This document shows, in pieces, positions 53,720 to 61,392 of a stretch of DNA of 64,000 bases. Source of the stretch: Sulfurospirillum barnesii SES-3 (GTDB lineage: Bacteria > Campylobacterota > Campylobacteria > Campylobacterales > Sulfurospirillaceae); contig NC_018002.1 of assembly GCF_000265295.1 (NCBI RefSeq), positions 1,612,001 to 1,676,000 on the forward strand, written 5' to 3'. The position numbers were made by a program, and so were the translations under genes. A model generated the notes under the pieces. That model had not been told where the DNA came from. It saw only the letters and a program-made list of their open reading frames with translations, and ran no database searches. How positions within the stretch are numbered: position 1 is the stretch's first letter; every line of letters starts with the position of its first letter.

Positions 53720-54934
53720 CTATTTTTTGAGGGTTTTAAAAAGCTCTACTGCGTCAAGTTTTTCCCACGGATAATCACTCTGTCCTACTTGTCCACGTGC
53801 AGCAACATCGGCATACAAAAAGGTGTCTTCACTGGGTTTATCCAAGCCAAATTTTTCTGTAATCCAGCGAGGTGTTAAACTAAACGTATGAATCACAAAT
53901 TCAGAGAGTTCATCATCACTCACACTGGTATACGTCCCAAAAGTATCGACTGAAATAGAAACAGGTTTTGCCACACCAATGGCATAGGAGAGCTGAACAG
54001 AGCATTTTTTAGCAAGACCTGCAGCAACAATGTTTTTAGCAATCCAACGTCCTGCGTAAAGCCCACTTCTATCCACTTTGGTGTAATCTTTACTTGATTG
54101 TGCTCCACCACCAATAGGTGCATAGCCACCAAAACTATCCACGATAAGTTTACGACCTGTTAATCCTGAATCATGCAAAGAGCTGTGGTTAACATAACGA
54201 CCTGTTGGGTTAATATGAATAATTGTATTGTTAGGATCATACAACTCCGTTGGAAGCCCTGTATCGTCAATTAAACCCTTAATGAGTGTTCGTACCTCTT
54301 CAATGCTCATGGCTTCATTTGAAGGAGCTGAGACAACAATAGTGTGAATCTTTTGAGGTTTACACTCTTCAAAATTTTGCTTCGTTCCATAATCAATGGT
54401 CACTTGAGTTTTAATATCAACACCGAGTTTGTGGTTATGTTTTAGTGCATAATTATAGACTTTATCGCAAAGCATTCTTGCATACGTAATGGCAGCTGGC
54501 ATAAAATCAGCGGTTTCGCAGGAGGCAAATCCAAACATAATGCCCTGATCGCCTGCACCAATTTCACCGCTTACTTGATCCACACCTTGATTAATATCAC
54601 TGCTTTGTTGATTGAGTAAAACCTGTACTTTTACCTCATCAGGATGCAAACATTGCTCTTTAGTAAACGCCGATTTGCCATCGTAACCAATTTTTGCTAA
54701 TGCATCTTTGACAATCTTTTCATAATCTGAAAAAGAGAGAATCTGCTTGGTATTGACTTCGCCACCAATAATAATGTGCTTACCTGCAACAAAAACCTCA
54801 CTGGCAACCCGTGAATTTTTATCTGAAATCAAGAGTGCATCGACAATGCTATCAGCAATAATATCCGCACATTTGTCAGGATGCCCTGGACTTACAACTT
54901 CTGAGGTAAAAAGGTAGTGTGATTGTATTTCCAT
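53720..54934 (-). CDS. metK: S-adenosylmethionine synthase
   Basis: About 404 residues from ATG 54934. MetK makes SAM from ATP and methionine. Visible are FTSEVVSPGHPDKCADIIAD at the N-terminus, the GAGDQGIMFG motif, and the GGGAQSSKDYTKVDRSG P-loop-like region. The ATG at 54934 is preferred because residues before the FTSEV block vary in the family, and the longer reading from 54973 lies in a repeat-rich leader. No palindrome copy lies inside. Confidence 0.95.
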   Translation of the reverse strand: MEIQSHYLFTSEVVSPGHPDKCADIIADSIVDALLISDKNSRVASEVFVAGKHIIIGGEVNTKQILSFSDYEKIVKDALAKIGYDGKSAFTKEQCLHPDEVKVQVLLNQQSSDINQGVDQVSGEIGAGDQGIMFGFASCETADFMPAAITYARMLCDKVYNYALKHNHKLGVDIKTQVTIDYGTKQNFEECKPQKIHTIVVSAPSNEAMSIEEVRTLIKGLIDDTGLPTELYDPNNTIIHINPTGRYVNHSSLHDSGLTGRKLIVDSFGGYAPIGGGAQSSKDYTKVDRSGLYAGRWIAKNIVAAGLAKKCSVQLSYAIGVAKPVSISVDTFGTYTSVSDDELSEFVIHTFSLTPRWITEKFGLDKPSEDTFLYADVAARGQVGQSDYPWEKLDAVELFKTLKK

Positions 54935-55064
54935 GTTTTGTTTTCCATTTCTTTGTTTTCCTGTTCCAAACACGTTTTAAAAAACTCTCGTTTTTTAAAA
55001 GCTTTTATACTTTCGAGGAAAGCATAACGTTTGTAAACTTGTTTTCCATCCTTTTGTTTTCCAT
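54935..55064 (-). promoter_or_regulatory. metK leader with tandem repeats, hairpin and a short upstream frame
   Basis: Read on the minus strand, ATGGAAAACAA occurs three times exactly (ending at 55054, 55039, 54938) and once with its first two bases altered (54953-54963). Between the copies an 11-bp perfect inverted repeat (54975-55000, arms TTTTAAAAAAC/GTTTTTTAAAA, loop 4) could fold. A 19-codon frame (55064 to 55005) starts at the first repeat. Five ANGGA motifs, the core of CsrA sites, are present, the last at the metK start codon. No known SAM riboswitch was recognised. Confidence 0.45.
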
Positions 55065-55164
55065 TTAGGGTTGAAGAAAAAACCGTAAATTAAAAGTTAA
55101 AAGTTTGAACCAGAGTCTTTGGAGACTCACCATATTTTGAGAAATGTTATCGTAGTCTTTTCTT

Positions 55165-56058
55165 TCATAAAATGAGCTTATGCCAAAGCGTTATACTCAA
55201 AAACGAAAATAAAATCCCCAAAGCCAAAGCGTTAATCGCCAAATCCTTATTTAATCCACCACGAATTGCAAGCACCACCGCCATCGTCATAGGAGGCATA
55301 GCCACTTCTAAAAAGGTAATTTGCATGGCATCTGTTTTCAAATCTGCAAAATATACAAAATAAAAGAGCATCAACAAGGGCGTAATAAGCATTTTTATAC
55401 TCAATGCCACAAGATTTTCTTTAAAATACAAAGGCATTGCCCTAAAATCAAGTTTCATCCCCACAATGGTGGTTACCAGAGGAATTAATGTCGCTTGAAA
55501 TTTGTCCAACATCGTCTCAATAAATGAGGGAAAAACAGTACCTTGAAAATAAATAGCAGCAACAATGGCTAACAGTGGCGGTGAAAAAAACATCTGTTTT
55601 GCAACCTCTTTGACACCTCGCTCCTGTCCACCACCCCACGCAATAATCACAACACCAAAGGTTAAGAGTGCAATAAAACTTGCCATTTGATCGTACACCA
55701 ACGCATACACCACATGGTCCAAAGAGTACAACGACTCAACATACGAGAAGCCTACAAATGCCGTATTACCAAAAATGGATACGATCATAACCGTAGCGAG
55801 GTCTCTTTTATTGAGTTTCATAACCCGCCCAGCACCGTATGCCAAAACAGATGCAATGCCCATTGCTATGTATGCAATTAAAATTACATTAAAAATTTCA
55901 TCATTAAATTCAAGCTTTCTAATTTTTGACAAAGCCAATGCAGGAAGTGAAAAATAAATCACAAACTCGGTGAGGGCTTCTGAAATATCATGCTTAATAC
56001 GCTTAAAGGCATACCCTAAAAAAACGAACAAAAACACGGGCGTAATCTGTTCTACCAT
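55165..56058 (-). CDS. AEC family transporter (auxin efflux carrier-like)
   Basis: This 297-residue protein has about ten helices arranged as two halves of five, as in AEC/MdcF-type permeases. The opening is ITPVFLFVFLGYAFKR, and a MPPMTMAVVLAIRGGLN segment lies near the end. Such permeases move organic acids or amino-acid-like anions. The substrate is not predictable. It overlaps the end of aat by 7 nt. A weak stem-loop (55113-55128) lies after it. Confidence 0.85.
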   Translation of the reverse strand: MVEQITPVFLFVFLGYAFKRIKHDISEALTEFVIYFSLPALALSKIRKLEFNDEIFNVILIAYIAMGIASVLAYGAGRVMKLNKRDLATVMIVSIFGNTAFVGFSYVESLYSLDHVVYALVYDQMASFIALLTFGVVIIAWGGGQERGVKEVAKQMFFSPPLLAIVAAIYFQGTVFPSFIETMLDKFQATLIPLVTTIVGMKLDFRAMPLYFKENLVALSIKMLITPLLMLFYFVYFADLKTDAMQITFLEVAMPPMTMAVVLAIRGGLNKDLAINALALGILFSFLSITLWHKLIL

Positions 56059-61165: not shown

Positions 61166-61392
61166 TATTTAAGCTTCTTACTTAAATCTAAAAGTACGTC
61201 AGGGCGAACACTTTTACTGGCTTCTATATTGGTCTCTTTAATGGCTTGAGCAAGTTCTTCACGCAAGATCATCATCTCTTTAGGAGCATCAAATCCAAGT
61301 TTAACAAGCCCTTTGGATATATCAATCACCCTCACCGTAATCGTTTCGTTTAAAACAACACCTTCGCCCACTTTTCGTGTTAATATCAACAT
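61165..61392 (-). CDS. csrA: Carbon storage regulator CsrA
   Basis: The 75-residue RNA-binding protein starts MLILTRKVGEGVVLNETITV and has the RVIDISKGLVKLGFDAP and ILREEL segments that form the RNA-binding dimer. It binds ANGGA motifs in mRNA leaders. In this phylum the flagellar assembly factor FliW is its usual antagonist. Its ATG lies 1 bp after truB. Confidence 0.96.
   Translation of the reverse strand: MLILTRKVGEGVVLNETITVRVIDISKGLVKLGFDAPKEMMILREELAQAIKETNIEASKSVRPDVLLDLSKKLK

Follow-up and report, generated by a model that had tools for sequence, protein, structure and literature searches.

Mirror-spaced box arrays in the metK leaders of two bacterial families probably form an undescribed metK switch

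The metK leader of Sulfurospirillum barnesii holds four boxes around a hairpin

In the window (the whole 64,000-nt stretch of Sulfurospirillum barnesii SES-3 DNA analysed here), the gene metK is preceded by a leader with four UGGAAAACAA(A) boxes, two on either side of a hairpin domain, P3 (Table 1). An earlier note on this DNA had singled out the leader as unusual and regulatory-looking. That description is supported, and the observation behind it is real and of greater extent than stated, while the interpretation as a whole is partly supported. The note listed three exact copies of ATGGAAAACAA, which lie at 55064-55054, 55049-55039 and 54948-54938 on the minus strand, as well as a partial copy, which reads CAGGAAAACAA and has its box at 54961-54953. 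Also present are the perfect 11-bp inverted repeat (54975-54985 and 54990-55000), a 19-codon frame, which by direct reading of the sequence runs from 55064 (MENKRMENKFTNVMLSSKV, then a stop), and five ANGGA cores, starting at 55064, 55053, 55049, 54948 and 54934, the last at the metK start codon.

Table 1. Features of the metK leader (positions in the window)
Feature	Position	Strand	Remark
P1, 5´ hairpin GAGUCUCCAAAGACUC	55113..55128	minus	
U-rich strand UUCAAACUUUUAACUUUUAAUUU	55087..55109	minus	
Box 1, left outer, GGAAAACAA	55054..55062	minus	
Box 2, left inner, GGAAAACAA	55039..55047	minus	15 nt past box 1
P3, self-closed variable hairpin domain	54962..55038	minus	contains the 11-bp inverted repeat, 54975-55000
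Box 3, right inner, GGAAAACAA	54953..54961	minus	
Box 4, right outer, GGAAAACAA	54938..54946	minus	15 nt past box 3
Partial fifth box with metK start codon (54934-54932)	54924..54934	minus	14 nt past box 4
metK, S-adenosylmethionine synthetase	53720..54934	minus	start from homology and nearest in-frame ATG

Three of these descriptions needed amending. The repeat copies are there, but conservation applies to the unit UGGAAAACAAA and not to the start codon. Within P3, the inverted repeat forms a sub-hairpin specific to its lineage (of the P3 sequences viewed, L082 also has it, as does L002 with one change), but it is the P3-closing helix that is retained. Finally, the piece described as the leader does belong to it but ends too early, as the leader reaches upstream to the P1 hairpin. 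When the whole window was searched for the repeat at up to one mismatch, five matches were found against a mean of 4.65 in shuffled sequences, which is not above chance; what goes beyond chance is that 130 bases hold three exact copies and that these are conserved. The GGA of box 4 is the only one in the window that closely precedes the metK start, and it may have a Shine-Dalgarno-like role.

Arrays accompany metK in two families

Leaders were collected by a MetK protein search (loci L001-L110) and, in the other part (L111 onward), with an exact box pattern; boxes were recognized with at most one or two mismatches. After removal of loci in which under two boxes were exact, and of arrays repeating a core already included, this gave 118 distinct arrays, 71 of them from loci that the MetK protein search had found by itself. 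The arrays come from the window's own family (f1, assigned to Sulfurospirillum by the identical leaders L087/L004 and L095/L009) and from family f9, assigned to Arcobacter by the identical leaders L112/L034 and L115/L071. Adjacent box pairs were detected in 55/298 Campylobacterales genomes, namely in 27/29 of f1, 28/29 of f9 and 0/240 of the others, and the reversed control pattern gave one match in the same search. The two f1 genomes lacking a box pair are G030, which has a degenerate array (L155), and G035, which gave no metK match. In a fuller sample of f9, box pairs were present in 102/104 genomes and missing from G314 (54% complete) and G168. At up to three mismatches, all 16 same-genus genomes had two adjacent box pairs at metK, with three stray matches altogether, and four genomes of other families had one chance-like match each. 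The repeats and the hairpin, which the earlier note allowed might be unconserved within the genus, are thus kept well beyond it.

The arrays are tied to metK, with at least two exact exceptions among the matches listed: one (L153) begins a small unrelated gene, and the other (L152) lies just past an unrelated reading frame. In two genomes (G018 and G012), the first metK is boxed and a second one, 57-59% identical, has no upstream boxes. When presence of the array was mapped on a MetK tree with 89 carriers and 17 non-carriers, four changes were needed compared with 16 for shuffled labels, and supported branches force two. Ten of the 17 non-carriers are Sulfurimonas; the array-less MetK proteins of Sulfurimonas types are ~80% identical to array-bearing MetK.

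Several further loci were noted during this survey. The box-less second metK of some Sulfurospirillum-type genomes (L149 and L151, in G018 and G012) lies beside a methyltransferase-like gene, which from its motifs we take to be protein-L-isoaspartate-methyltransferase-like. Another reading frame in the window's genome (L199, G000:C1:2221110-2221610; start MENNTSTPTFESFGLHQDILKAVTEAG), presumably helicase-like, opens with a pair of box-like copies, TGGAAAACAGATGGAAAACAA, at a distance of 11 nt, which are absent from three other genomes compared. The leader and metK start appear twice around an N run in L047, and G330:C52 (L186) has four pattern matches; this is probably an assembly artefact.

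The 5´ part of the leader is less regular. A hairpin of variable sequence at the position of P1 precedes the U-rich strand in many leaders of f1 and of Aliarcobacter type, and a loose anchor pattern for this 5´ element matched 77/118 arrays, a few of these matches being doubtful. A pattern related to the U-rich strand (up to two mismatches) was found in 26/37 genomes, with many of the same-genus matches at metK. On paper, the U-rich strand could pair with the boxes. In L017, a stretch with a long inverted repeat replaces the 5´ domain upstream of box 1, and the boxes and P3 stay. No sigma-70 promoter match was found in 54900-55300, and the window's array is not among the 88/118 arrays with TATAAT-like hexamers 40-170 nt upstream of the first box. 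Upstream of P1 in L082, L090 and L001, the putative -10 region is palindromic (GAGTATTATACTC-like), and this region is degenerate in the window; the palindrome, seen in several Sulfurospirillum leaders, is possibly an operator.

Constraint extends over the whole box

The GGAAAAC core is exact in 348/360 main boxes of the 90 arrays with a P3, the remaining 12 having an A-to-C change at the fourth letter, and in 104/104 boxes of the 26 arrays without P3. These counts are high partly by construction, because few mismatches were allowed and some loci were fetched by the box pattern. With the box right after P3 left out, the base preceding GG is U in 269/270 boxes; in the box directly after P3 this base is variable, and in the arrays without P3 the third box has an A there. 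The A of the AUG is sometimes lost from outer boxes with the U retained, and the first AUG is replaced by ACG in L097 and by GUG in L011. The first base of the inner spacers is A and the last is U in 180/180 cases (90 arrays). In arrays with 13-13-13 spacing, the second box has often lost the AA at its end, across from the GG of the third box. Constraint spans the whole box rather than GGA alone. In an energy model, boxes have a mean unpaired probability of 0.67 compared with 0.45 elsewhere, and the complete leader of the window folds slightly better than shuffled sequences (z -1.12).

These features bear on the earlier note's suggestion that the leader is a CsrA target. Several GGA cores are present, one at the start codon, and csrA is encoded in the window as the note had said (G000:C1:1673234-1673392, window 61234-61392), as well as in the 11 f1 genomes listed. 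CsrA could thus bind in Sulfurospirillum, where the protein is present. However, csrA was found in 0/104 f9 genomes, which have box pairs in 102/104, so CsrA cannot explain why the array is retained, and the constraint covers the entire box. The boxes also lie on either side of a hairpin and come out largely unpaired in the model, rather than presenting GGA in a hairpin loop, whereas C. jejuni CsrA is described in passages of PMC4894983 as preferring AAGGA in a hairpin loop. Repression through CsrA is the least likely of the explanations weighed here. The absence of csrA from 104/104 Arcobacter-family genomes, though the gene is common in the order (95/149), is an observation in its own right.

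Repeated and mostly unpaired boxes would also suit an antisense small RNA that targets the leader with several UUUUCC stretches. Tandem anti-boxes outside metK, however, were limited to scattered single matches in three genomes, with a fourth having none; the single anti-box common to all four genomes searched lies antisense in a conserved reading frame, and no Hfq was found above cut-off in 120 genomes (one sub-threshold match contains stops). On the four genomes searched we regard such an RNA as highly improbable, though a single short anti-box may act in this way.

P3 is a maintained hairpin of variable length

P3 ranges from 16 to 157 nt in length. All 89 sequences free of N (L013 has an N in P3 and was left out of folding) fold with a single closing helix that leaves 0-2 nt on either side, and in 86/89 the fold has z < -2 relative to shuffles. 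Five or six pair types occur at every one of the six outermost pair levels of the closing helix. The array shares with riboswitches as a kind a leader RNA that is conserved, keeps a helix and goes with a metabolic gene. In L014, P3 has grown to 157 nt and contains direct repeats (GGAAGAGATTTGAAATATTTT-like), which indicates that the hairpin domain tolerates large insertions. A DNA operator was rejected by reasoning: on DNA, mirror-spaced direct repeats would lack two-fold symmetry, and pairing within P3 is maintained, so that RNA is preferred.

The spacing of the boxes is mirrored across P3

Measured outward from P3, the inner steps between boxes are 15|15 in 54 arrays and 14|14 in 34, and are thus equal in 88/90 arrays with P3, the exceptions being L130 (14|15) and L189 (13|14). 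In the subset found by the MetK protein search alone, they are equal in 51/51. Where outer steps are included, 17 arrays read 13-15|15-13, and one array each reads 14-15|15-14, 12-14|14-12, 12-15|15-12 and 13-14|14-13. Outer steps are equal in 25/33 arrays; the eight mismatches are Aliarcobacter-type 15-14|14-14 and 15-14|14-13, in which parsing of the outer partial boxes is doubtful (GGAAAAA overlaps). The metK start lies one step beyond the right outer box in 86/90 arrays with P3. The 26 arrays without P3 consist of four boxes at 13-nt steps with the start codon inside the last box. (L066 and L138 belong to the 118 arrays and fall outside the 116 with two comparable steps.)

The two arms have changed together. 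By parsimony on a quick MetK tree that includes fragments down to 55 residues, the inner steps require 11 changes on the left, 9 on the right and 11 jointly, meaning that all nine right-arm changes coincide with left-arm changes; the outer steps require 6, 5 and 8, in the same order. Across 1400 simulated pairs of independent traits, the mean number of coincident changes was 1.17 and the maximum 5, and tips with equal steps, observed in 113/115, reached at most 101/115 in the simulations. Restriction to well-supported branches leaves four comparisons, of which a mean of 3.7 agree and 0 are opposed, too few for significance. No base covariation was found between the two box arms, and since the box letters hardly vary, length is the only covariation between them.

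A second suggestion of the earlier note, control through a translated leader, would have ribosomes use the AUGs in the boxes upstream, as decoys or as the start of a peptide, and so tune metK. Most boxes carry an AUG, one AUG lies closely upstream of the metK start, and the window has its 19-codon frame. Against this, frames from the inner-left AUG vary from 4 to >44 codons and the lengths of P3 are spread over the three frames, and this drift across arrays excludes a leader peptide. In addition, the AUG is lost in some boxes with U-GGAAAAC retained, and the mirrored spacing is left without explanation. Upstream initiation of this kind is very unlikely to account for the array.

The main rival to a fold-back of the RNA on itself is a two-fold symmetric RNA-binding protein that grips one box per arm across P3, with no RNA ladder. 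The protein could be MetK itself, a tetramer, acting in autogenous repression, or another factor. Many identical, mostly unpaired boxes resemble protein sites such as the GAG repeats of TRAP, their number varies between arrays, and the array accompanies one metK and not the second metK of the same genome. Flexible strands bound box by box, however, would need no equal arm spacing, yet the inner steps are equal almost throughout. No candidate protein was found either, csrA being missing in f9 and Hfq in the order, and the high identity between array-less and array-bearing MetK speaks against MetK as the binder. We see binding of this type as a possibility to be taken seriously, if a rather doubtful one.

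A fold-back RNA may control metK translation

The leader arrays in the two families probably form an undescribed metK switch. Their conservation, their restriction to metK, the P3 hairpin and the mirrored spacing with its coordinated changes are established. Our main reading, to which we assign a probability of about 0.5, is that of a metK-specific cis-regulatory RNA, which would fold back so that boxes face each other by the ribosome-binding site and control metK translation. P3 would align the two leader arms in exact register, and the identical purine boxes (UGGAAAACAAA) on the 5´ and 3´ arms would face each other as rungs, two in Sulfurospirillum and three in several relatives. Such a geometry fits the mirror-spaced direct repeats on the two sides of the hairpin: in a folded-back RNA, the antiparallel arms would place identical boxes level with each other. 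A rigid fold-back also requires matched arms, which would account for both being lengthened or shortened equally. The rungs would probably consist of purine-purine contacts (G-A, A-A) bounded by A-U pairs, and the invariant A and U at the ends of the inner spacers are compatible with this. As the ribosome-binding site and start codon coincide with the outermost 3´ box or follow it directly, closing or opening of the ladder would hide or expose both and thereby set the amount of SAM synthetase. The signal is probably SAM or methionine status.

Several observations count against a ladder. By standard energy rules the boxes are predicted to be mostly open, and the predicted folding excess of the leader over shuffled sequences is small. 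Inner steps differ in L130 and L189, outer steps differ in 8/33 arrays, L017 is without the 5´ domain, the second box of 13-13-13 arrays often lacks AA, and base covariation between the arms is absent. That the arrays represent a new RNA architecture, a hairpin with a modular ladder of purine-purine boxes in which rungs and spacers change in pairs and which provides feedback on SAM synthetase translation, is offered as a tentative proposal and a less probable one than our main reading. The matched spacers make the ladder directly testable by one- and two-sided spacer mutants.

SAM synthetase is a central enzyme, and relatives here keep a long, nearly letter-perfect leader in front of its gene, with a geometry that has no counterpart in Rfam. 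If it arises from pairing, covariation in length without covariation in bases would be a type of structure missed by covariation-based RNA searches.

Comparison with known systems

In the literature searched, with subscription papers mostly outside it, we found no description of metK control in Campylobacterota or of this element. For C. jejuni, passages of PMC4894983 term the metK promoter constitutive, and the part of PMC11187230 consulted gives a metK 5´ UTR of 24 nt. Sections of PMC3847290 on C. jejuni 5´ UTRs report that, the TPP riboswitch aside, no metabolite-sensing riboswitch was detected, and contain no mention of metK. The main text of a study of methionine regulation in Proteobacteria, as far as seen, leaves Epsilonproteobacteria and Campylobacter unmentioned (PMC4239095); its coverage includes SAM-Chlorobi, and the metK passages of PMC2864571, on SAM/SAH, concern Rhodobacterales and Chlorobi.

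The metK-tied element is real, deeply conserved, of mirror architecture and matched to no known family, and its function would be regulatory. There were no Rfam gathering matches in the window; at E ≤ 10, four matches in the leader (E 2.2-7.9) belong to unrelated families, none of them a riboswitch. A known SAM or SAH riboswitch was rejected for want of a covariance-model match, and the earlier note was right that none fits. Comparison with the RNAs of a 2017 survey, reportedly 224 candidates, extends as far as Rfam contains them. SAM-I, SAM-III, SAM/SAH, SAM-Chlorobi and SAM-VI likewise are conserved RNAs directly upstream of metK, and SAM riboswitch classes likewise are lineage-restricted and lie near the ribosome-binding site. 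SAM riboswitches form a compact aptamer, however, whereas here identical, mirror-spaced boxes surround a free hairpin.

Several motif copies in a SAM synthetase mRNA are also known from animals, where hairpins of the MAT2A mRNA are read by METTL16. Those hairpins sit in the 3´ UTR, in contrast to the 5´ leader position of the metK element. A METTL16-like enzyme was rejected as effector, PF05971 being unmatched in the nine f1 genomes listed; across 120 genomes this family had E ≤ 0.001 in 34, scored above cut-off in 11 and was strong only in G102. UGGAA-repeat RNA shares UGGAA with the boxes and may self-pair through G-A contacts, but is a human disease repeat with a different unit and no evolutionary link to them.

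Leaders repressed by CsrA/RsmA likewise have multiple GGA motifs with one at the start codon; the metK element differs in being kept without csrA, in conservation of the whole 9-11 nt box and in its mirror geometry. TRAP binds GAG repeats in a leader, and arrays of this type similarly present several identical short single-strand boxes. In the metK leaders, by comparison, the box is longer, the steps are 12-15 nt, and the boxes form two arms of matched steps around a hairpin.
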